Origin: Deltaproteobacteria bacterium
Lineage (GTDB): Bacteria > Desulfobacterota > DSM-4660 > Desulfatiglandales > HGW-15
Reading direction: 5' to 3'
DNA length: 49,351 nucleotides
NCBI GenBank assembly: GCA_016930835.1
Contig: JAFGGA010000142.1
Coordinates: forward strand, 1 to 49,351
The notes under the pieces were generated by a model. That model saw only the letters and a program-made list of their open reading frames with translations. It had not been told where the DNA came from and did not search any database. How positions within the stretch are numbered: the first letter of the stretch is position 1; every line of letters begins with the position of its first letter. Below are positions 17,428-45,690 of this stretch, one piece after another. The translations under genes were made by a program, and so were the position numbers.

Positions 17428-17587
17428 TGATCTCGTAAAAACCCGGGAAATGTTATTTTTCGTCATTCCGGCGAAGGCCGGAATCCAGTATTTTCAAATA
17501 GTTGCAAGGACGCTGGACCCCCGGACGCAGTCTATCCCGTACTTGATACGGGACCTGGGTGATGACTTTAAGAGATTGTCAATTTTA
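17425..17587 (-). repeat. MITE-like composite repeat, copy 1
   Basis: About 160 bp with related inverted ends: TGATGATCTCGTAAAAA at 17425-17441 and, read on the other strand, TTGACAATCTCTTAAAG ending near 17585. Inside are palindromes (CATTCCGG...CCGGAATCC; ATCCCGTACTTGATACGGGA). Read on the minus strand it aligns with the copies at 28783 and 42355. No coding capacity. Confidence 0.75.
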
Positions 17588-17642: not shown

Positions 17643-20600
17643 CTATATCCGAATGACCCATGCCCAGGGGACAATGACCTCGAAGGGCGAATCCTTTCCA
17701 TGTGTATACCGGGGGGCATCGTATTTATCATCGGGCCGGAAAGCGGGATTTCCCATGAATCCGTGGTCCGAGAAAAGGAGCAACAGGGTGCGGGAAGGCA
17801 GATCCCGAAACCGAAAAAAAAGGTCCATCTCCAGGGATCGGAGCACAGTGGCAAAGAGATGGGGTAAGGGGCCTTTTTCAGAATGGACCTTTTCATCAAT
17901 CATGCCGATCTTCCAGAAAAGGTCCTCATCCGTATCGGGATAGACGGCTTTAAGTGCCTCTTCAAAACGGACCAGTTGAGGCGCGGTGCTGGTGGGCTGA
18001 TTGGCCCATAGGGCACCTTCTCTGATGAATCGGAAGAGATTCGGATTTTTTTCAAAAAAATCGGCCTTGATGCATTCCCAAAGGTCCCATCGCATGCCGT
18101 CCATCAGAACAAAACAGACCCTTTGATGATCAGGCACGTTGCGTTTCCGGGAAAGGATGCCGGGAATATCTTGAATCATCACAGGCCTGGGCGTTTTGCC
18201 TGCCTCCCATTCTCGCAGTGCGGACTCGTAAAACGCGGAGAATGCCTGAACCTTCTCCAGGACCCGGGTATGGGCTTCTTGTCCCTCCTCTTTAATGTAA
18301 TGAGGCATATTGACCCCAAGCCTTTTAAACCCGGCTTCTAGCGCCTCTTTTTGGTAGGGAAGGGTCGCAAGGGTTTGGATATAGAAAGTTTCCCATTTTT
18401 CAAATGTCTCCGGCGCCTCCCTTTTCGGGACATTAAGCGCGGAAAGCCCATGACGGAAACGGCCATATGTCTTGAGAACCTCCATCATCTCACGGTGATG
18501 CGCCAGGCAACGTAGGCCCTCCCCCGGGTCGCTGGTCCCGAATGATTCCGGCAGGGTCTCGAGAATGTCCTCTTTCGGTTTCTCGATAAAAAGGCGTTCA
18601 AAGGCCTCTTTGAGAATACCCGGGAATAGGGTCTCTTTCTCAAAAATGCTTATGGGAGACAGGTCCGCCAAAAGAGTCCAAAGGGTCTTGATAAAAGCTG
18701 AGTCCTGTTCGATTTCGGTGATGCAGGTCTCAAACAAGGATCTTTTCTCTTTATACAGGACTCGGGCCGATTCCCTTAAATACCCCATCCATTTCACGGT
18801 TTTTTTTGGGGACCGCCGTTCAGGTAAAGCGAACGCATCCGTTATTTCTTGTTCTGAGACGTTATATTCTTCAGCCCACAAAACAGCAATCATCAGTCGG
18901 ACAAACGGTTGATGTCCGATCTCCTGATAAAGAGGTAATAGATGCCTGAATTCAGCTTCCAAAAAACGGCTCAGATCATCTTGCGAACTGACACCAGACG
19001 GTCCTTCCCCGCGGCCGACAAAATGGAGAAAGGTATCATCGGCTATGGTCTCTTCCTTGAGCCAGTCTCGGAGGATCTTACGAAGTTGTGCCAGGGTGTA
19101 TTTACGGTGAACCAGACTGTGGTACAATTGATCCAGATCCCTTCTAACCACCACGACCTTTCCTCGGAAGGCCTCGTTGATACTCCGGATCACCCGGGGA
19201 GTTAGGGCCTTGTCCAGTTGATCCAAAAGATCTTTCCCCCCTTGTTTTACGGCAAGTAGCTGCCGAACCGTATCGGCCTCCGGTTTCCGGTCGACCATAT
19301 CCAGGCTCTCCAGATATGGAAGGATCTTTTCCTGAATGGCCGGGGCGTGCAGGGACGCCAATGTCTCGGAGATCCCGAGTTCGATCGCCGCTTCAATTTC
19401 CTTGAAAGGGGTGAACGGTTTGCTTTCACCAATACGAAATCCACACGCGCAGACCGGTCCTCTTTGAAGGTGATCCCGGGGAGAGAGGGAGCACTGCTCG
19501 GCCGTAACCGATAAAAGCGCTTGATTCACGGATCGATAGTTATGTTCCACGGAGATCATTTCCAGTTGATCCAAACGTTTAAGGACATCATAAGGCTTGG
19601 ACTTCGCAAGCTTTTCATAGGGCTCAAACCGAGCGCCGCCACGGGCCTGGTTATGGGCCTGAGTATAGATCCTGATGTAGGATTCCTGGAAATCCTGAAA
19701 CTTATCGAACACGGCGTCCAGCATATCGGAAGAAAGGGCATCCTGTTTTTCCGTGAAAAAAGCAAGGATGCCCGACTGATCACTCCGCAGCCGATCATAG
19801 CCTTCCACGATATTCCCTTCCCGGACACCATACGCCGCATCCTCCTGCTCCCATGCATAAGGATTCTGTTCGGGTATGTGGAGCCGCTGGTCCGTGAGGT
19901 ACTGATATATAAATAAGCCACGCTCAACCTGGTCCAAAAAACGATGACATGCCTGGAGGGATTGATGCTTTTCCTCCAGAAAAGGCTCCCTTTGTCCTGC
20001 CCTTATAAACCGTTCCAGTCCGTCCTTGGAAGAAAGGCTGGTCTTGACTTCATCCCACTGAGCAGTCAGGTCCTCAATATCCCGAAGCACACGCTCCCAA
20101 GGCATATTTTTAAACGCATCAAAATGCGAGGCCCATTTGATTCGAGATCCCAAGGAGGCCAGGTCCTCCATGGCTGAAGATTTCTGAGACTTGAGCTGGG
20201 CCCATAGCTCCTCTTGGGAAACCAAGGTCATTGGAATATTTCGGAACGGCTTGGGGATTAATGGATGAGTGGGCAGGGCCTGCCGGAATGTCTCGGCGAT
20301 GATCTCGCCCTTGCCTAGGGCCGTGACGCCTTTGAGCCCGGTCCGGGCAAGCTCATCCGGGGACTTACGGTTCATCATCTTGTAGGCCACCAGGTGTCCT
20401 GAAAAAAGAAGCGAAAGGATCAGGATCTCAAAATAGGGCATCAACAGGCCGTATTCCCCTTTTCGCAGGTCCCAATACATCTCATCCAGGGGGACGCTTT
20501 GTCTTTCCCCCATGACCGTAAAAAAATAACGGGCCAATTCATTTTGTTTGGGATTCACATGGAGTTCGTATTGATTGCCCTTGCTTCGTACAAGCCCCAT

Positions 20601-22874
20601 GGGCTTTAATATATTATCCAGAACATCCCGCAGCCCGAACTGTTGCCGCTGTTCAACAACCATGATGCCGCTGAGAAGGAAATTCCAGAGCATGTCGCGT
20701 AAAATGCCCGCTGTGGGGGCGCTCATGAAAGGCTGAACGCGGCTGTGCCGGGGGAACCGACGTTCCAGAAGGGGTGGCACGAACTCCGCTAGGAATTTTT
20801 CCTGACTCAGGACGCCAATCTTGGAAAGATCGGTCTCATTTTCATCCCAAAGAAGCAGCCCCTGATAATAATAATGGGTATAGTGCTCGGTGACACGCTT
20901 TCGCTCCCCGTCGATAAAGGCCTCGAGGATCTCCTTTTCCTCCTGTTGGCCGGTGTCGCTTCCCCGGTGCGTCTCATCATTCATGAGGATGGCAGCCAGG
21001 ATCTCTTTTAGCCAATCCACATCGCCCTTTACCGGGGCAGGCACCCAAAACAAAAACCGGCCCTGATGACGGTCTCGGATAAGTGGGAGAAGCGTATCCT
21101 TGACATGTCGGTATTGGCCTTCCCGATTGTAAGTGGTTCCCGCCAGGATAAAAAAGTCTTCTTCACTCCGCGCCTCCTGTCCGGCAAGACCTTCTATTTC
21201 ATCCACTGTCAGTTCATCCAGTTGACGGAGCAAAAGAATGCCGGTCCGGGGGGTTTGCTGCCAGCGGGTGGTAACCTGTTGCCGTCCTTTTTCCGTCCAC
21301 TCCTTGAGCGGCACATAGGGCGAATCGGATAATGCCGCCGTCTTCCAGAAGAGACGCCGGTCATCCGGGAAAAGCTGGGAGGCCTGGTGCCGGATGCGCC
21401 GGCGAACGATCCCGGCCATATCCGCCTTGAGGTCGATATAAAAGTGGTCATCCAGGGGGTCGTCATGATTTTCAAAACGGATGTACAATCCTTCCTTAGA
21501 CAGTCGCAGCAGGATATCGTGTAAAAATTCATAATTGATCCCGGAGTCCAGGGAAGTGATCCGGAAAAGGATCATCTCGGCCATATGGCGAACGGTGAAT
21601 TTATATTGAACCGGCGAGACGGCGAACAGGATTAGGAGTTTGACGGCCGCCAGCGCGACGGTTTTTTGGTCGCGATCCGGAAACAAACGATGAATCTCCT
21701 GCTCGGAACTCTCAAATACCCGCTGCACATAGACCTGGGTTTCGGCCCGTTCACGGATACGGTCCAGAAAATGGTCAAAGATGGTCTCCGGGGTCAGGAG
21801 ATGGTTGGCTGTCAGGGCCATCATGGATGGGATATGCCGCTCGGGGTCACCCTTGAGACGGAAATGAATGAAGTCCACCACGCCACGGTGCTCCGAGAAA
21901 AGCGGCTTGAGCCGGTCCAACAGGGAGGAGGTTGCCGGATGGACTGGATACAGCCGGATAAAACGATCGCGGGTGACCGGGAAGGTGGGGAAAAAGGTCT
22001 TGAGCTTATCAAAAATTCGACCGATCTCCGAATCCGCCCCTGGCTTATGGCGGATTAACCTCTCGGAAACCAGCTCCTCGATATGGGCGCGTCCCAGGTT
22101 CAGACGAATCCGATACCGGTCTTTGATCTTATTAAACGTATCCTGGTGGATCTCGCCGGTCTCTTCGATCCATTCCTGCAATGAGGCGACAATCCACATG
22201 GGAAATGACACGGCCTCTTCCCCCAGGTACTGCAAAAACCGTATGTCCTCATGATAGGCCCGGGCGTCGGTCTTGGACCGGAGAAACTCGGACAGCTCAT
22301 CCACCAATATCACAAGACCGGAAAAGCCTTTTTCCTTTAAAAAATCCTTGAGTTTCAGGAAGGTCTCATGCCGCGTCTCCGCGTCATCCCATGCCTCCAC
22401 CGTGTCTTCCCCCAAGGTCTCCCATACGGCCCGAAGGATGATATCCTCCAGAAACTCCGATCCCCTGTGCTGGACCAGAGAACGTTCCACCACCAAAAAA
22501 CGACGGTCTGTGAGTCTTTGTCTGTAATCCTTTAGAGAGGGAGATTGGGAAAGGACGGTCTCCCATGCCTGGGGGGCCTTTAAAAGCACGCTGAGCATGC
22601 TTAAAAAATGGGATTTCCCCGATCCGAAGTGACCCTTAAGGAATATCCCCCGGCCTTCAGGGCCGGTTAGGCTTGCCAGGATCGCCTGGAGATTGCTCAG
22701 GACCTCGGAGGTGATGACGAATGTCTCGACGATCATTCCCCGAAGGCCAGGGTCCTTGAGGTCTTCGAGCTGGATCACCGTCCGGATCTCCGGCACTTCC
22801 ACCAGGTCTTGAATTTTCAGGTTGTCATTCTCAGTGGCCATATCAGGGTTCAGGGTTGATGATTCATGCTTCAA
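17643..22874 (-). CDS. BrxC/PglY-like (DUF6079-type) ATPase fused to a PglZ phosphatase domain
   Basis: A single 1743-residue polypeptide. N-terminal P-loop ATPase: Walker A GHFGSGKSH at 81-89 and Walker B ILVDELSEF with D192-E193, the form seen in BrxC/PglY/DUF6079 ATPases. The long middle is helical and charged, with CACG near the centre. The C-terminal 170 residues match the PglZ alkaline-phosphatase-like domain: FVLMDGMRWD with D1592, a QPTSTAP loop, SDHG with D1703-H1704, and THG near 1729. In BREX these are separate proteins. No methylase, Lon, BrxA/B or nuclease gene is beside it. The start is a TTG; the ATG at 22841 is an alternative, and neither has a good ribosome-binding site. Confidence 0.8.
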   Translation of the reverse strand: MKHESSTLNPDMATENDNLKIQDLVEVPEIRTVIQLEDLKDPGLRGMIVETFVITSEVLSNLQAILASLTGPEGRGIFLKGHFGSGKSHFLSMLSVLLKAPQAWETVLSQSPSLKDYRQRLTDRRFLVVERSLVQHRGSEFLEDIILRAVWETLGEDTVEAWDDAETRHETFLKLKDFLKEKGFSGLVILVDELSEFLRSKTDARAYHEDIRFLQYLGEEAVSFPMWIVASLQEWIEETGEIHQDTFNKIKDRYRIRLNLGRAHIEELVSERLIRHKPGADSEIGRIFDKLKTFFPTFPVTRDRFIRLYPVHPATSSLLDRLKPLFSEHRGVVDFIHFRLKGDPERHIPSMMALTANHLLTPETIFDHFLDRIRERAETQVYVQRVFESSEQEIHRLFPDRDQKTVALAAVKLLILFAVSPVQYKFTVRHMAEMILFRITSLDSGINYEFLHDILLRLSKEGLYIRFENHDDPLDDHFYIDLKADMAGIVRRRIRHQASQLFPDDRRLFWKTAALSDSPYVPLKEWTEKGRQQVTTRWQQTPRTGILLLRQLDELTVDEIEGLAGQEARSEEDFFILAGTTYNREGQYRHVKDTLLPLIRDRHQGRFLFWVPAPVKGDVDWLKEILAAILMNDETHRGSDTGQQEEKEILEAFIDGERKRVTEHYTHYYYQGLLLWDENETDLSKIGVLSQEKFLAEFVPPLLERRFPRHSRVQPFMSAPTAGILRDMLWNFLLSGIMVVEQRQQFGLRDVLDNILKPMGLVRSKGNQYELHVNPKQNELARYFFTVMGERQSVPLDEMYWDLRKGEYGLLMPYFEILILSLLFSGHLVAYKMMNRKSPDELARTGLKGVTALGKGEIIAETFRQALPTHPLIPKPFRNIPMTLVSQEELWAQLKSQKSSAMEDLASLGSRIKWASHFDAFKNMPWERVLRDIEDLTAQWDEVKTSLSSKDGLERFIRAGQREPFLEEKHQSLQACHRFLDQVERGLFIYQYLTDQRLHIPEQNPYAWEQEDAAYGVREGNIVEGYDRLRSDQSGILAFFTEKQDALSSDMLDAVFDKFQDFQESYIRIYTQAHNQARGGARFEPYEKLAKSKPYDVLKRLDQLEMISVEHNYRSVNQALLSVTAEQCSLSPRDHLQRGPVCACGFRIGESKPFTPFKEIEAAIELGISETLASLHAPAIQEKILPYLESLDMVDRKPEADTVRQLLAVKQGGKDLLDQLDKALTPRVIRSINEAFRGKVVVVRRDLDQLYHSLVHRKYTLAQLRKILRDWLKEETIADDTFLHFVGRGEGPSGVSSQDDLSRFLEAEFRHLLPLYQEIGHQPFVRLMIAVLWAEEYNVSEQEITDAFALPERRSPKKTVKWMGYLRESARVLYKEKRSLFETCITEIEQDSAFIKTLWTLLADLSPISIFEKETLFPGILKEAFERLFIEKPKEDILETLPESFGTSDPGEGLRCLAHHREMMEVLKTYGRFRHGLSALNVPKREAPETFEKWETFYIQTLATLPYQKEALEAGFKRLGVNMPHYIKEEGQEAHTRVLEKVQAFSAFYESALREWEAGKTPRPVMIQDIPGILSRKRNVPDHQRVCFVLMDGMRWDLWECIKADFFEKNPNLFRFIREGALWANQPTSTAPQLVRFEEALKAVYPDTDEDLFWKIGMIDEKVHSEKGPLPHLFATVLRSLEMDLFFRFRDLPSRTLLLLFSDHGFMGNPAFRPDDKYDAPRYTHGKDSPFEVIVPWAWVIRI

Positions 22875-23124: not shown

Positions 23125-23673
23125 ATGATGACATTAACAGATGAACATGCAAGATGCTGGCATAACAAAGAGATCGTTTTCCGCCCGATTGGTGTCATCC
23201 ACTCTGAACATCATGAACAGGAAAATACCCCCATCCAAGGGGTGTTTAACCCATCCGTGGGACATGTTGAGGTCTTTCCCGAATTCTCAGAGGGGTTGCG
23301 TGATATCGAATCGTTCACATACCTGTATCTGCTTTATTATTTTGATCGTTCAACGGGTGTGAGCCTTCTCCAGAAGCCTTTTCTGGATGGAGAAAAAGAA
23401 CGGGGCATCTTTGCCATACGCCACTTCAACCGGCCGAACCCATTGGGGATCTCGATCGTTAAACTCATGGAAGTGACGGGGAATATCTTGGAAGTGGAAG
23501 GGGTTGATGTTCTGGACGGCACTCCCTTAATCGATATCAAACCCTATGTTCGGCAGTTTGACCACAGGGATGATGTAAAAAGCGGGTGGGTGGATGATAA
23601 ACATCTGGGTGATGTTGCTGAATGGAACAGCACACCCAAAGAACTCAGAAACCGTGAAAGGACGAATACGTAA
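23125..23673 (+). CDS. trmO: tRNA (t6A37) N6-methyltransferase TrmO (TsaA-like)
   Basis: SAM-dependent enzyme that methylates threonylcarbamoyladenosine at position 37 of tRNA. One beta-barrel TsaA domain, 182 residues. The family signature is present: GIFAIRHFNRPNPLGIS (94-111), then the long VDVLDGTPLIDIKPY strand and FDHRDDVKSGW. Length and motifs fit the short archaeal/anaerobe branch lacking the E. coli C-terminal extension. AGAGGA is 7-8 bases before the ATG. It stands alone between divergent and convergent genes. Confidence 0.85.
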   Translation: MMTLTDEHARCWHNKEIVFRPIGVIHSEHHEQENTPIQGVFNPSVGHVEVFPEFSEGLRDIESFTYLYLLYYFDRSTGVSLLQKPFLDGEKERGIFAIRHFNRPNPLGISIVKLMEVTGNILEVEGVDVLDGTPLIDIKPYVRQFDHRDDVKSGWVDDKHLGDVAEWNSTPKELRNRERTNT

Positions 23674-23816: not shown

Positions 23817-26213
23817 TCACCCCTGTGTATTTGAAAATAAGGGCGATGAACCTTTTTCATTCTCACCCCTGACCTCTTTTAAAAGCTCTAGAAAGGGTAG
23901 GCCGTATTTTCTCAGGGTCACCTCCCCGACACCAGTGAGGCACAGAAGTTGATCGGGGGTCGCGGGGAGGATACGAGCCATTTCCCGGAGGGTTCGATCC
24001 TGAAAAATACAATAAGAAGGAAGTCGTTCCTCCTTTGCCAGACGGGTGCGCAGGTTGCGGAGTCTTTCAAAGATCTCCTTTTCAGAACCTTTAAGGGGTT
24101 GATGGATCTTTAAGGAGGGCGCGGTTTCTCTTACGGGTAAAGTCAAGAGGATAGCTTCTTGACCCGACATCACCTTACGGCCTCGATCCGTAAGGATAGC
24201 GACCGGGTATCGCTTTTCCCCCATGTTGATCCGTTTTGTCACAATACACCCTTTTGCCGTGAGTTCCTTGATCCATTCCAATATCTGCGATTGGGTATAT
24301 TCCGACAGCAATCCATAGGTGGACAGGCGCTGAAGGCCGAATTGGCGCAATATCCGGTCATCGGACCCGGTAAGGACCTTGGCGGCCATCCCCATACCAA
24401 AGCGCTCCTTAAGACGGGCCACACCACTGAGAATCTTGACCGCGAGGATGGGATCGGCATGATCCTTTTCCGGTGATATATCTTCTTCTTTCGCGTCGCA
24501 GAGATCACAGGCCCCGCAACGCCTATCATGGAGGGATTCCCCAAAATAACCCAATAAATAATGACGCCTGCACGTATCATTGGATGCATAGGCCATGACC
24601 TGGTCCAATTTCTCCAACTCATTGGCCTTACGAATTTGAAGGGCCTGATAATCAATAACCAATCTTTCCGGCTCCACACGGTTCAGGATGCGTAGCCCCC
24701 GGCCCCGAAAAGGGGCAATAAATGTCACTTCACGGGCCTTTTCCATTCGGCCGAGACAACGTCTTAATGCATCCGGGGTGAGGCCGGTCATCTCGGCCAG
24801 CTCATCCGTAAGAAACTGAATGCCGGCCGTAAGCTGTTCGTCATCATAAAGTCTTTGAAGTCCTTGGATGAATTTTTCACGATTTCCGATCCTCTTGGAT
24901 GAGGTTTTCAAAAGTTGTTCCGGATTTTGATGCAAATAGAGTTCCGCTTGATTATCATAACGTTGAAGCCGCGAAAGCACACCCGCGTCCTCCAGTATCT
25001 TGACGCAGGACCCTACGGTCAGATCGGCTATTTTCTCCTCTCCCAATAATCCGATCTCTCGATAAGTGAGCCAGATCACGTCCTCCGGTCTTTTTCTAAG
25101 GCGATTCCAAACCTCAAAGATCATTCCTTGCGGAGGGTAGCGGGACTCGATAAAAAATTCCTGCAACCTTCGATCAAGGGCATTATAAAGAAGCAGGCAG
25201 GTGGCTGGCTCGCCATCCCGGCCTGCCCGGCCGCTCTCCTGATAATAGGCCTCGATACTGCCGGGAAATGTGTGGTGAACCACCATGCGGATGTCCGACC
25301 GGTCGATGCCCATGCCAAAGGCATTGGTGGCCACCACCAGATCGGTCCGGCCTTCCATGAAATCGTCTTGAACGCGGGTACGCTCATCCTTATCCAGACC
25401 CGCGTGATAGGCCTCAGCCTTCAAACCGCTATTTCGAAGCGATTCGGCGATACTCTCCACCTTTTTCCGGGTTCCCGTATAAATGATGGCGGCGCCCGAA
25501 AGACCTTCCAAACGCCCTTTGAGCAAGGCCGTCTTTTGTTCCTCATCATGGACCGGAGCTACCTCCCAGTAAAGATTGCGACGGTCGAACCCGGTGATAA
25601 ACACGTTCGGGGCCTTGAGTTGCAATTGAGTGATGATATCCGTCCGCACCTTTTCCGTGGCCGTGGCCGTCAAGGCAATGGTCTGGGGCCTGCCCAAAGC
25701 CTGGAGTGCATGGGCGATGCGTAGGTAATCGGGCCGAAAATCATGCCCCCACTGGGAGATGCAGTGGGCCTCATCCACGGCCACCATGGTGATGGGGTTT
25801 TGTTTTAGGGCCTGGATAAACCGCTGGTTTCGTAACCGTTCCGGTGAGGCATACACCAGTTTAACCTCTCCTGTTATGATCCGGGTTAAGGCCTCTTCCT
25901 GTTCCTTGAGAGTCATCAGGCTATGGATGGCCGTAACCTGCATATCCCTTACCCGCAAGGCATCCATCTGGTCCTTCATCAGGGCGATAAGCGGGGATAT
26001 AACCAGCGTCACGCCCTCCCGTATAAACGCTGGGATCTGGTAGCAAAGGGATTTGCCGCCGCCCGTGGGCATGATGACCAGTGTGTCCCTGCCGTCCAGT
26101 ACCGAGGTCACGATCTCTTCCTGACCGGGCCGAAAACGGTGATATCCGAATACCCGCTGCATAAAAGCAAGGGCGGCGTCAATGGATTCGATCTGAATGG
26201 GTTGTCTAAGCAT
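23817..26213 (-). CDS. recQ: ATP-dependent DNA helicase RecQ, extended form
   Basis: 3'-to-5' helicase for recombination and fork repair. From the ATG at 26213 it is 798 residues, clearly longer than the 600-700 usual for RecQ (an in-frame TTG at 26249 is possible). Core motifs: TGGGKS at 50-55, DEAHCISQWGHDFRPDY, and QESGRAGRDG. The zinc site (CRRHYLLGYFGE...CGACDLCD) comes late because about 120 residues of helical/winged-helix-like sequence are inserted after the helicase core. A winged-helix domain and a C-terminal HRDC domain (LPSYCIFQDRTLREMA, LTGVGEVTLRKYG) follow. Confidence 0.93.
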   Translation of the reverse strand: MLRQPIQIESIDAALAFMQRVFGYHRFRPGQEEIVTSVLDGRDTLVIMPTGGGKSLCYQIPAFIREGVTLVISPLIALMKDQMDALRVRDMQVTAIHSLMTLKEQEEALTRIITGEVKLVYASPERLRNQRFIQALKQNPITMVAVDEAHCISQWGHDFRPDYLRIAHALQALGRPQTIALTATATEKVRTDIITQLQLKAPNVFITGFDRRNLYWEVAPVHDEEQKTALLKGRLEGLSGAAIIYTGTRKKVESIAESLRNSGLKAEAYHAGLDKDERTRVQDDFMEGRTDLVVATNAFGMGIDRSDIRMVVHHTFPGSIEAYYQESGRAGRDGEPATCLLLYNALDRRLQEFFIESRYPPQGMIFEVWNRLRKRPEDVIWLTYREIGLLGEEKIADLTVGSCVKILEDAGVLSRLQRYDNQAELYLHQNPEQLLKTSSKRIGNREKFIQGLQRLYDDEQLTAGIQFLTDELAEMTGLTPDALRRCLGRMEKAREVTFIAPFRGRGLRILNRVEPERLVIDYQALQIRKANELEKLDQVMAYASNDTCRRHYLLGYFGESLHDRRCGACDLCDAKEEDISPEKDHADPILAVKILSGVARLKERFGMGMAAKVLTGSDDRILRQFGLQRLSTYGLLSEYTQSQILEWIKELTAKGCIVTKRINMGEKRYPVAILTDRGRKVMSGQEAILLTLPVRETAPSLKIHQPLKGSEKEIFERLRNLRTRLAKEERLPSYCIFQDRTLREMARILPATPDQLLCLTGVGEVTLRKYGLPFLELLKEVRGENEKGSSPLFSNTQG

Positions 26214-26275
26214 GTTTTTTGAGTCCGGACGCAACGCTTCCGAGTGCAATGTTCAAGGGTTACATGTTGACCCTT

Positions 26276-27268
26276 TTATTCTATTGAAAAATTTTTCTTA
26301 AGCCTCTTTAATGTTCCCATGAGTTTCACATTATGGGGATGTTCCTTTAGGGTGTCTTCTATTAATTGAATAAGGCCCTTGTCATCTCCCGTTCGGGAAT
26401 AAAGCTTTTTGATTGTTTTTTTAACGATAAAATCCGTTGGGTCCCTGCGAAAGGCCTCCCCCAGCAGACGAATCGCTTCGGGGTATTCTTTCAGCCTATT
26501 CCGGCAAAAGCCTTCCTGTTTGATAAAAAACACATTGTCCGGGGCCAATTCGTAGGCCTTTTTATATTCATCCGCCGCCTCTTTGAACCTGCCAGCCTCT
26601 CTGAGTTTCTCGCCCAATAGCCCGTGCAGCTGGGCATCATCCTTATGGGAAGAGAGGTTTAAAACCTTTTGCAATTCCTGAATAACTTCATGAGCGGGGC
26701 GCTTCAGACTCCTTAACTTATACACGGCCTTGGCCGCAAAAGAATCATCGGGGTCCAAATCCTTGACGCGTTCATATATCCGCAAGGCTTCGTCTGAGGA
26801 CTTCATACGATCCAATATGATGGCCTTTTCTTTGAGCAAGCCGATATGATTCCGATTGTTAAGCAAGGCCCCATCAATCATTTCAAGGGCCTCTTGGTTT
26901 CGGTCCTTCTTCTTCAGTGCCTTGACCACCCCGAGTGTTACATAGGGACTGGGGTCGTGTTCATGGGCCTGTTGAAAACACTGAAGGGCGTCATCTATAT
27001 GATCCTCTTGAAGATAGACCTCACCAAGCACATAGAGGGCTTGAGGATATTGAGGTGCTTGAGTCAGAACGGATTCAGCCAGGATACGCGCTTCTTTTAC
27101 CCGGCCCTGCTTCAAATAAAGTTGAGCAAGGCTGGCGTTCAACAGGGGATGATGCGGCTGTTCTTCCAGGGCCTCTTTGAGTTCCTTTTCAGCCTCTTGA
27201 AACTGATTGTTTTTGCGAAGCTTTAAGGCGTTTTGCCATTTTTGTTTGGAATATTTATTCAGGTTCAT
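26276..27268 (-). CDS. Tetratricopeptide-repeat protein
   Basis: 330 residues, almost entirely TPR units of 34 residues (for example LNASLAQLYLKQGRVKEARIL and ALYVLGEVYLQEDHIDDALQCF). There is no signal peptide and no catalytic domain, so it is a cytoplasmic scaffold or adaptor. The N-terminus is Lys-rich. It lies 62 bp upstream of recQ on the same strand and may share its transcript. Partner unknown. Confidence 0.85.
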   Translation of the reverse strand: MNLNKYSKQKWQNALKLRKNNQFQEAEKELKEALEEQPHHPLLNASLAQLYLKQGRVKEARILAESVLTQAPQYPQALYVLGEVYLQEDHIDDALQCFQQAHEHDPSPYVTLGVVKALKKKDRNQEALEMIDGALLNNRNHIGLLKEKAIILDRMKSSDEALRIYERVKDLDPDDSFAAKAVYKLRSLKRPAHEVIQELQKVLNLSSHKDDAQLHGLLGEKLREAGRFKEAADEYKKAYELAPDNVFFIKQEGFCRNRLKEYPEAIRLLGEAFRRDPTDFIVKKTIKKLYSRTGDDKGLIQLIEDTLKEHPHNVKLMGTLKRLKKNFSIE

Positions 27269-28782: not shown

Positions 28783-28953
28783 CTTGACAATCTCGCAAAA
28801 AGTCCTCAACCCGGTCCTGTATCAAGGGCGGGATAGCCTGCGGCCGGGGTCCGGAGTCCATATAACTACTTAAAAAGACTGGATTCCTGTCTTCACCTGT
28901 CTGCGTGTTGACACGCACAGGCAGGCCGGAATGACAAAAACCTTTTCATTGAT
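28783..28953 (+). repeat. MITE-like composite repeat, copy 2
   Basis: Starts TTGACAATCTCGCAAAAAG (28784), runs through CCGGTCCTGTATCAAGG, GGGGTCCGGAGTCC and AAAAAGACTGGATTCC, and ends CCGGAATGACAAAAACC. It carries an extra nested hairpin (CTGTCTGCGTG/CACGCACAGGCAG, 28899-28926) absent from the other copies. It separates the convergent leuB-type and aconitase genes and may act as a terminator. Confidence 0.75.
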
Positions 28954-43167: not shown

Positions 43168-45561
43168 TCAGGCCAACTCCAGCGTGCCGTCCGCGGCCCG
43201 CCGCCATGGGATCCAGCACAGCCCCACCGTTCCGACCGAGATGTCCGACCTGCGCGGTCGAACCTGGTCCTTCTCGATCTCGATATGGGCCGGGTCCACG
43301 TCCGCCCGCAGAGCGGATGCCTCCTCGTCGAACTGTGCCTGCAGTTCCGCCAGCCTCGCCTGTACCATCTCAACGCTCTCCGTCGCGCGGGCAACGTCGG
43401 CCGCCTCCTTGCCGATCTTACTCGCGCTCTTCATCGCGCTGGTGGCGCGCGTGACATTGCCGACGCTGGTGACCTTGCGCCCGAACAGCGCACTAAGCAC
43501 CGTCGCGCCGAAGGAGAGCGCCGCGGTCAACTTCTGCTGTCCAACTTGCGCCTTCTCGCGCTCGACGCGCTCGGCGGCGCGACGCAGTCTGTCGTTCAGG
43601 TTCTGCAGTTTGGGCGTATACTTCACCTTCAGCCTATCAACCTCCATATCCCGTTTTTCGCGCATCACCTGCGCGCACCGCACGCGGAAGTCGCCTTCGC
43701 TCTCACCCGCCTCCGACGTCATCTTAAGCACGGGGCACTTCATCAGGTCCAGCGTGATGCTCTGGTAGATGAACTGCGCGAGTGACTTGCCCCAGGTCGT
43801 GTAGTTCTTCGGATTGGTCGCCCCTGCGTCCAGCTCCGCAAACCGCGCAGCGGCGATGGGCTCGCGGTCGAGTTCATCCTTGATGTCGCCCCGCTCGGCC
43901 GCCTCCTCCCAGAGGGCCGTGCGGCCGTCGTCCGAAAGGGGCGCTAGGTGCGTGCAGATCGTCCAGGTGTCCAAGCCGGCCTTGGCGTTGACGAAGTGCA
44001 GTTTGCCGACGCCAACGATTTTGGGCTTGTATATGAGTGCCTCGGTCGGGTTCTTCGGGCGGAGGAAGAACTCCTGTATGTCCGGCGGTAGGACCGGTTT
44101 CGACGCCGGCGCGGCCGGAGCAGGGACGGGAGAGGCCGCCTCCGCCGTAAGGCCGACGGGCGAGAGGCGTCTGATCTGCTGTAGGGTCAGTGGCCCGCGC
44201 AGGTAGCTCATGGCCCAGCGAGTCTGAAACACGACGGGCTTGTCCTCGTGGACGTTACGCATGAGGAACACGCGGTTGCCGAGCCCGGCGAGAAGCTGTT
44301 CGGTTTGCGCACGGTCGAAACCACCGCCCGCGCTAGCGGCGACGCCTTCCAGTCCTTCGATTACTCGCATCTTGTCGCGCTCGGTCTGCAGGCGCCCGAT
44401 GAACCATGTGCCGCAGTTGGACAGGCCCTTGTAATCGAGGTCGACCGGGTTCTGTGTGCTCAACACCACTCCCAGGCCGAAGGCGCGGGCCTGTTTTAGC
44501 AGAGTCAGCATGGGCGTTTTCGACGGTGGGTTGGCGCTGGGTGGAAAGTAACCGTAAATCTCGTCCATGTACAGCATTGCCCGCAGGCTGCTCGTTCCTG
44601 ACTGCGCGCGCATCCACGACAGGACCTCGTTGAGCAGGATCGTGACAAAGAACATACGTTCGGCGTCTGACAAGTGCGCGATAAAGAGGACCGTGACGCG
44701 CGGCTTGCCCTCGGGTGTATAAAACATCCTCTGCACGTCGATTGGCTCGCCTTCCATCCAGGCTGAGAAGCCGGGCGAGGCGATCAGGTTGTTGAGGCTC
44801 ATGGCCAAGTTAAAGCGCTCTTTCATGGGGTAGAACAATTCGAGATCGAACACGCCGACCTTGTCGAACGGCGGGTTCTGGACCTCCTGGATGATTCCGG
44901 CGATGTCGAGACCGCGGCCCTCGCGCCAAGCGCAATCAAGGATGTTGGACAGGAGGATGTGCTCGCGGCTCTGGACCGGATCGGCGTTGATGCCCATCAG
45001 CCCGAGCAGACCGGAGACTGCGGACAAGATGCGGTCGCGCAGGGCAGAGGTGTCCTGCGCCACGGCGGCCGGCGGTGCCGAGAACGAACGAAGGATCTGC
45101 AGGGGACGCCCGGACGTGTTGCCCGGTGTGAAGATTGTCATCTCCACGGCGTCCTTCAGGCAGCGGATGCGCGCAGCGTCCTGCCCCCACTGAGCGAGGC
45201 CCTTCTTCCATGTTTCCGCGGTCCTCGCGGCGTAGGCGTCAGGGTCCATGCCCTTGCGCGCGGCCTCGGCCTCGTCCACCCACGGGCGGAAATCGCCAGG
45301 CTGGAGATCAGGGAACTGGAGCAGGATGTTCCCGAGATCGCCCTTCGGGTCAATCAGGATCGCGGGTATGCCGTCGATCGCAGCCTCCTCAATGAGGCTC
45401 AAGGCCAGACCGGTCTTGCCACTGCCGGTCATGCCGACCATCATCGCGTGGGTGGTCAGGTCCTTGGCATCGTAGAGAAGCAGGTTGCCAGTGGCGGTTC
45501 CGGCGGCAAGGTCGAACTCCTTGCCGAGGTAGAAAACGCCGAGTTTCTCGAAGTCGTGCAT
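43168..45561 (-). CDS. HerA/VirB4-like DUF87-type ATPase
   Basis: 797 residues from the ATG at 45561, preceded by GAAGGAGG, one of the best ribosome-binding sites in the window. P-loop: VGMTGSGKT with GMTGSGKT at 43-50; the preceding NLLLYDAKDLTTHA is the typical lead-in. Walker B is MLYMDEIYGYFPP with D333-E334. The C-terminal 200 residues are coiled-coil and Glu/Arg-rich with a Gly/Ala-rich segment. The related group includes conjugation-type and HerA defence ATPases. Codon use is strongly G+C-biased, unlike the rest of the window. No nuclease or methylase partner sits beside it. Confidence 0.82.
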   Translation of the reverse strand: MHDFEKLGVFYLGKEFDLAAGTATGNLLLYDAKDLTTHAMMVGMTGSGKTGLALSLIEEAAIDGIPAILIDPKGDLGNILLQFPDLQPGDFRPWVDEAEAARKGMDPDAYAARTAETWKKGLAQWGQDAARIRCLKDAVEMTIFTPGNTSGRPLQILRSFSAPPAAVAQDTSALRDRILSAVSGLLGLMGINADPVQSREHILLSNILDCAWREGRGLDIAGIIQEVQNPPFDKVGVFDLELFYPMKERFNLAMSLNNLIASPGFSAWMEGEPIDVQRMFYTPEGKPRVTVLFIAHLSDAERMFFVTILLNEVLSWMRAQSGTSSLRAMLYMDEIYGYFPPSANPPSKTPMLTLLKQARAFGLGVVLSTQNPVDLDYKGLSNCGTWFIGRLQTERDKMRVIEGLEGVAASAGGGFDRAQTEQLLAGLGNRVFLMRNVHEDKPVVFQTRWAMSYLRGPLTLQQIRRLSPVGLTAEAASPVPAPAAPASKPVLPPDIQEFFLRPKNPTEALIYKPKIVGVGKLHFVNAKAGLDTWTICTHLAPLSDDGRTALWEEAAERGDIKDELDREPIAAARFAELDAGATNPKNYTTWGKSLAQFIYQSITLDLMKCPVLKMTSEAGESEGDFRVRCAQVMREKRDMEVDRLKVKYTPKLQNLNDRLRRAAERVEREKAQVGQQKLTAALSFGATVLSALFGRKVTSVGNVTRATSAMKSASKIGKEAADVARATESVEMVQARLAELQAQFDEEASALRADVDPAHIEIEKDQVRPRRSDISVGTVGLCWIPWRRAADGTLELA

Positions 45562-45690
45562 GTTTTCCTCCTTCCTGTTCAAGGACACAAATTCCCGGGT
45601 GCCGGGAAGCGTCCCTAGATGTTTAAACGACAGACGCTCGACGGGTTGCACGTAACCCGGAGTGGAAGCACAACATCAGATTATGCACAT

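Follow-up and report, generated by a model that had tools for sequence, protein, structure and literature searches.

A BrxC–PglZ single-chain fusion with a constant TPR-repeat partner, found outside BREX operons in Desulfobacterota: a candidate BREX-derived, ATP-gated DNA nuclease module

In the bacteriophage exclusion (BREX) systems (types 1-6), BrxC and PglZ are separate proteins. BrxC binds DNA with ATP and assembles into rings when DNA is present, and PglZ nicks and cuts DNA in a metal-dependent manner, an activity that is lost when T538 is changed (PMC12205998, PMC13326643). Contact between the two proteins runs through BrxB, which is bound by the PglZ N-terminus and serves as the bridge to BrxC (PMC13326643). 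BrxA- and BrxB-like components are reported as universal in BREX in a paper that also describes two kinds of relatives (PMC12839542). Among these, the BREX-Related Capture (BRC) systems carry PglZ and a DUF6079 ATPase in a setting other than classical BREX, and the Type-3 BREX-related (BR) systems combine a BrxC-like ATPase, a minimal PglZ and a helicase (PMC12839542). Here we describe a gene joining BrxC-like and PglZ-like sequences in one polypeptide chain, located on contig JAFGGA010000142.1 of a Deltaproteobacteria bacterium (assembly GCA_016930835.1; positions 1 to 49,351, the whole stretch analyzed, hereafter “the window”). From sequence comparison and structure modeling we propose, with a probability of roughly 0.5, that its product is the core of a BREX-derived, methylation-independent, ATP-gated DNA nuclease complex with a tetratricopeptide-repeat (TPR) adaptor, acting most likely on invading DNA.

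The open reading frame of 1743 codons at 17643-22874 (minus strand) was confirmed. Its start is more likely the ATG at 22841 than the TTG at 22874, because homologues begin there, at codon 12, which is a methionine in every row of an alignment of 17 full-length homologues; the fusion gene would thus occupy 17643..22841 and encode 1732 residues, although residue numbers throughout keep the 1743-residue frame. The BrxC half scores with DUF6079 (E=6.8e-52) and with the PADLOC BrxC profile (E=1.6e-41), and the C-terminus with PADLOC PglZ (E=1.8e-7) and NCBIfam BREX_PglZ_3 (E=3.9e-7). The Pfam PglZ model gives no score on the fusion, and its search of the window's own genome returned zero matches, the fusion included, so that it is uninformative on further PglZ genes. 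A similarity to SspC, from the Ssp phosphorothioate defense, in the N-terminal AAA+ region (PADLOC, E=4e-14) is weaker than that to BrxC, and Ssp genes were not seen.

AlphaFold models built from the 17 homologues (mean predicted local distance difference test, pLDDT, 83-84) agree with these profiles. Predicted residues 19-481 match crystal and cryo-EM structures of BrxC (Z 24.7 over 424 residues; the top matches are all BrxC), predicted residues 1462-1743 match PorX as the closest solved fold (Z 22.2), and predicted residues 1295-1743 match residues 170-750 of BREX PglZ (Z 15.1 over 416 residues). When a profile of the fusion is aligned with ordinary BrxC proteins from related genomes (some 1250 residues), the match runs from residue 3 to ~1216; with the 671-674-residue PglZ proteins of those genomes, it begins only at about residue 340. 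Because of these structure matches and profile alignments, the protein is read as almost all of BrxC with the linker and catalytic region of PglZ attached behind it, the PglZ N-terminus being missing. On the minus strand, the AAA+ ATPase/winged helix-turn-helix half with the BrxC N-terminal fold (residues 19-481, also supported by profiles and alignment) lies at 21432..22820; the remainder of BrxC (residues 482 to ~1200, from alignment of the fusion profile with BrxC residues ~740-1216 of 1240-1266), with the invariant C1128 and C1142xC1144, at 19275..21431; and the PglZ linker and catalytic domain (residues 1295-1743) at 17646..18992. A chance motif match is ruled out by the profile matches and folds together, and an assembly artifact by the presence of the fusion in independent genomes. 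In this sense, the single-chain fusion proposed in an earlier note made from the DNA letters, which left the strand unstated, is real, and the PglZ match it placed at the C-terminus is borne out by structure and by two of the three profile collections; “complete” in that description calls for a qualification, since catalytic domain and linker are present and the N-terminal part, BrxB-binding in BREX, is absent. By analogy with BREX, the covalent link may replace the BrxB bridge.

Catalytic residues are retained on both sides of the fusion. Invariant in the 17 full-length homologues are K87 (Walker A), D192-E193 (Walker B), K249 and R253 (opposite K326 and R330, the arginine fingers of Acinetobacter BrxC, in the alignment), and also D1592, D1660, H1664, D1703, H1704 and H1725; at motif level, GKSH, DELSE, the aspartate of DGMRWD, DHG and HG are all invariant in the same set. 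In one homologue (L065), D1592 is retained and the remainder of the DGMRWD motif is lost. T1630 (codon at 17985..17987, minus strand), the predicted catalytic/metal-site threonine, is invariant in the C-terminal alignment and aligned with the active-site threonine of PorX (T271/T272, LPTATQ), its counterpart in BREX PglZ being T538 (PMC12205998). The fold match to PorX, a receiver-domain response regulator of PorXY two-component systems that lacks an AAA+ half, would suit a signaling enzyme, in which the PglZ domain hydrolyzes cyclic or linear oligonucleotides and the AAA+ and TPR parts work as switch or sensor: the PglZ domain of PorX degrades cyclic oligonucleotides, and so does BREX PglZ (PMC12205998). 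However, neither a receiver domain nor a linked cyclase was seen here, and both the BrxC half and the helicases that accompany the fusion speak for DNA as the substrate, so that we regard a signaling role as improbable.

The ratio of nonsynonymous to synonymous substitution rates (dN/dS) between close homologues (L064 vs. L065) is ~0.11 and 0.10 for the two halves, and both are under purifying selection; for the window's own gene, synonymous substitutions are saturated. Full-length or partial fusions were found in about 22 of the 395 sampled genomes of the phylum Desulfobacterota, in 9/85 of the class, and in 2/296 genomes of a second phylum (that of a Nitrospirae record), the named relatives being Desulfobacteraceae and Deltaproteobacteria metagenome-assembled genomes (MAGs). 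Trees of the BrxC half and of the PglZ half, with BREX proteins of the same phylum as outgroup, show one fusion clade each and are much alike in branching. Since both halves form one clade across two phyla and are under purifying selection, the comparison identifies the fusion as old and real.

The BREX proteins nearest to the fusion in sequence are of type 3 and come from related genomes. This origin in BrxC and PglZ is what a decayed BREX locus would leave behind, the fusion being a remnant after loss of the other operon genes. Nonetheless, some 25 genomes in two phyla share the architecture with no adjacent BREX operon, each half forms one clade, the catalytic residues are invariant and a TPR partner foreign to BREX is co-inherited; this explanation is largely refuted, and we consider it very improbable indeed. 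The same architecture in those genomes rules out a recent deletion of a BREX operon, the account that the earlier note had held open: in the neighborhood comparison, the homologues do not lie inside full BREX operons.

The constant partner is a TPR-repeat protein of 330 residues (26276..27268, minus strand), recognized by neighborhood comparison and co-occurrence. The usual layout in relatives is TPR-(RecQ)-fusion, with a TPR protein of ~335-350 residues encoded directly upstream and genes often overlapping or touching, and the window carries all three in this order. Within the class, the TPR protein is present in 9/9 genomes with the fusion vs. 0/76 others (Fisher p=2e-12, a value overstated by the relatedness of the genomes), and, counting linked and unlinked copies, it is found in all 27 checkable fusion genomes (those 9 and 18 more). 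In G754, of the second phylum, its gene stands immediately downstream of the fusion gene, and in G070, G074, G107 and G299 it is encoded elsewhere in the genome, a weaker relative being found in this way in G616; linked copies made up part of the alignment behind this search, in which G074, G107, G299 and G616 were not represented. A 5-kb stretch containing the TPR gene is ~97% identical between G070 and G412 (L075 8410-9408, L076 671-1669), whose fusions are only 66% alike; either recent transfer or MAG contamination may account for it. In G074, the unlinked TPR gene begins 14 bases after a RelA/SpoT gene (L117 6032-9221); the presence of RelA/SpoT or histidine kinase genes beside unlinked TPR genes was judged coincidental.

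The second companion, a RecQ helicase (23817..26249, minus strand; DEAD, Helicase_C, zinc, RQC and HRDC domains in a domain scan, supported by neighborhoods), is optional. It adjoins the fusion in 10 genomes, and in G299 RecQ and TPR genes lie together on a separate contig; within the class it accompanies 4/9 fusion genomes vs. 2/76 others (p=8e-4). RecQ of the same subfamily occurs in G437 and G435 with neither the fusion nor TPR (L077 530-2893, L078 8769-10523), which, together with its incomplete presence in the class, rules it out as an obligate partner. An SNF2 helicase adjoins the fusion at three loci (L002, L065 and L066). Thus, the stand-alone one-gene system suggested in the earlier note is contradicted by the TPR co-occurrence and the frequent RecQ operon; its description of the flanks as housekeeping fits most neighbors, the two conserved partners having been overlooked just beyond trmO. 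The latter gene (23125..23673, plus strand) stands on the opposite strand between RecQ and the fusion in the window only, none being recognizable in the RecQ-fusion spacer of the closest relatives, and is not part of the system.

A RecQ of this kind also invites a reading as a genome-maintenance machine, in which ATPase-nuclease, TPR protein and RecQ act on stalled forks, on recombination intermediates or on aberrant host DNA of other kinds, and defense plays no part. The RecQ of the window is complete, is a helicase of the repair type, and is the sole RQC-domain protein found in its genome; housekeeping neighbors, unlinked TPR genes, purifying selection and near-universal presence in one family (f40) would all be in keeping with it. 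On the other hand, the fusion is patchy in most of the class and broken in several genomes, RecQ is dispensable and also occurs without the fusion, and the closest relatives of both halves are phage-defense proteins. We consider genome maintenance unlikely, yet deserving of serious attention.

None of the tested neighbors was recognized as a BREX gene, as the earlier note had observed for at least 5 kb on either side, and this extends to the homologues. No PglX/BrxX methyltransferase was found among the Pfam-scanned neighbors of the window and homologues, a result confined to these neighborhoods as no genome-wide search was made; BrxL and other BREX genes were not recognized near the fusion in the same loci; and no neighbor was recognized as BrxA or BrxB by Pfam/PADLOC, components that evolve fast and can escape sequence searches. 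No HerA/FtsK translocase was found among the scanned neighbors in homologue loci. Compared with BREX, no methyltransferase, BrxA, BrxB, BrxL or BREX helicase was recognized beside the fusion, which has TPR and RecQ genes instead; in the window and in full-length homologues, a single reading frame encodes both the nearly whole BrxC with its AAA+ residues and the linker and catalytic domain of PglZ, metal-site residues included, without the PglZ N-terminal part. BRC systems have separate PglZ and DUF6079 genes, a STAND NTPase, DUF4007 and always HerA/FtsK, which were not found in the fusion operon, and BR systems have DUF499, a methyltransferase, an iSTAND gene and PglZ as its own gene (PMC12839542). 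The module shares BREX parts, yet fails defining BREX features, and is not counted as a member of BREX. An 827-residue HerA/DUF87-like ATPase is encoded 20 kb from the fusion (43168-45651, minus strand), with weak similarity to MADS8 (PADLOC E=3.7e-13); no link between this gene and the fusion was seen in other loci.

We favor, from these comparisons, a role of the module in defense. In the proposed mechanism, an ancient BREX-derived module would unite a BrxC AAA+ ATPase and a PglZ metal-dependent phosphodiesterase/nuclease in one polypeptide; the AAA+ part would assemble on DNA in an ATP-dependent manner, the covalently attached PglZ domain would cut the DNA, and the link between them would assume the bridging role of BrxB in BREX. 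The TPR protein may recruit the target or control assembly, and the helicase (RecQ, sometimes SNF2) may open or clear DNA. Because no methyltransferase lies beside the fusion, the choice between self and non-self would depend on the structure or topology of the DNA or on a protein signal, the target being most likely invading DNA. More tentatively, and with somewhat less confidence than an even chance, the module could represent a new class of anti-invader system, a TPR-guided, RecQ/SNF2-fed BrxC-PglZ ATPase-nuclease reading DNA structure instead of modification.

The patchy presence of the fusion speaks for defense, as do broken-looking copies in G019, G175 and G423, to which MAG errors may contribute, and an integrase and a transposase beside the copies at L003 and L004, respectively. 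Truncated or interrupted fusion copies with a TPR or RecQ gene visible beside them were seen at L068 1664-3318, L053 8734-9405 and L048 1777-6169. Several observations weigh on the opposite side. The unlinked TPR gene of several genomes is unusual for a defense operon; the other neighbors are housekeeping genes that vary by genome, with no defense islands; and in GC content the fusion gene and recQ closely resemble recA and alaS. The fusion is distributed like a housekeeping gene in family f40 (4/4 near-complete genomes), and another family has it in 6/8 near-complete genomes. It is absent from 50,697 phages and, within the sensitivity of the search, from IMG/VR, and the fusion as such from 72,556 plasmids, for which reason a mobile element was rejected. 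Furthermore, we know of no self-marking enzyme for the module. No tRNA or Rfam element was found in the window. Inverted intergenic repeats at 17457-17521 and 28846-28940 (52 nt, 79% complementary, and 16 nt) bracket the module, from the fusion to an isocitrate/isopropylmalate dehydrogenase gene, and are probably dispersed repeats.

In the literature searched, neither the fusion nor a PglZ-RecQ-TPR set was found described; the main text of a 2026 survey of BREX diversity is without RecQ or TPR, and the related systems described there have separate genes. The way in which ATPase and nuclease are coupled in BREX, and the reason for its many parts, still await an explanation, and a natural single chain that combines both core activities, keeps one small partner throughout and has no adjacent methyltransferase would offer a minimal form for a direct test of that coupling. 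If the module serves defense, it would be a BREX-derived system without marking of self DNA; if it does not, a BREX core would serve the cell's own DNA, which would bear on the origin of BREX.
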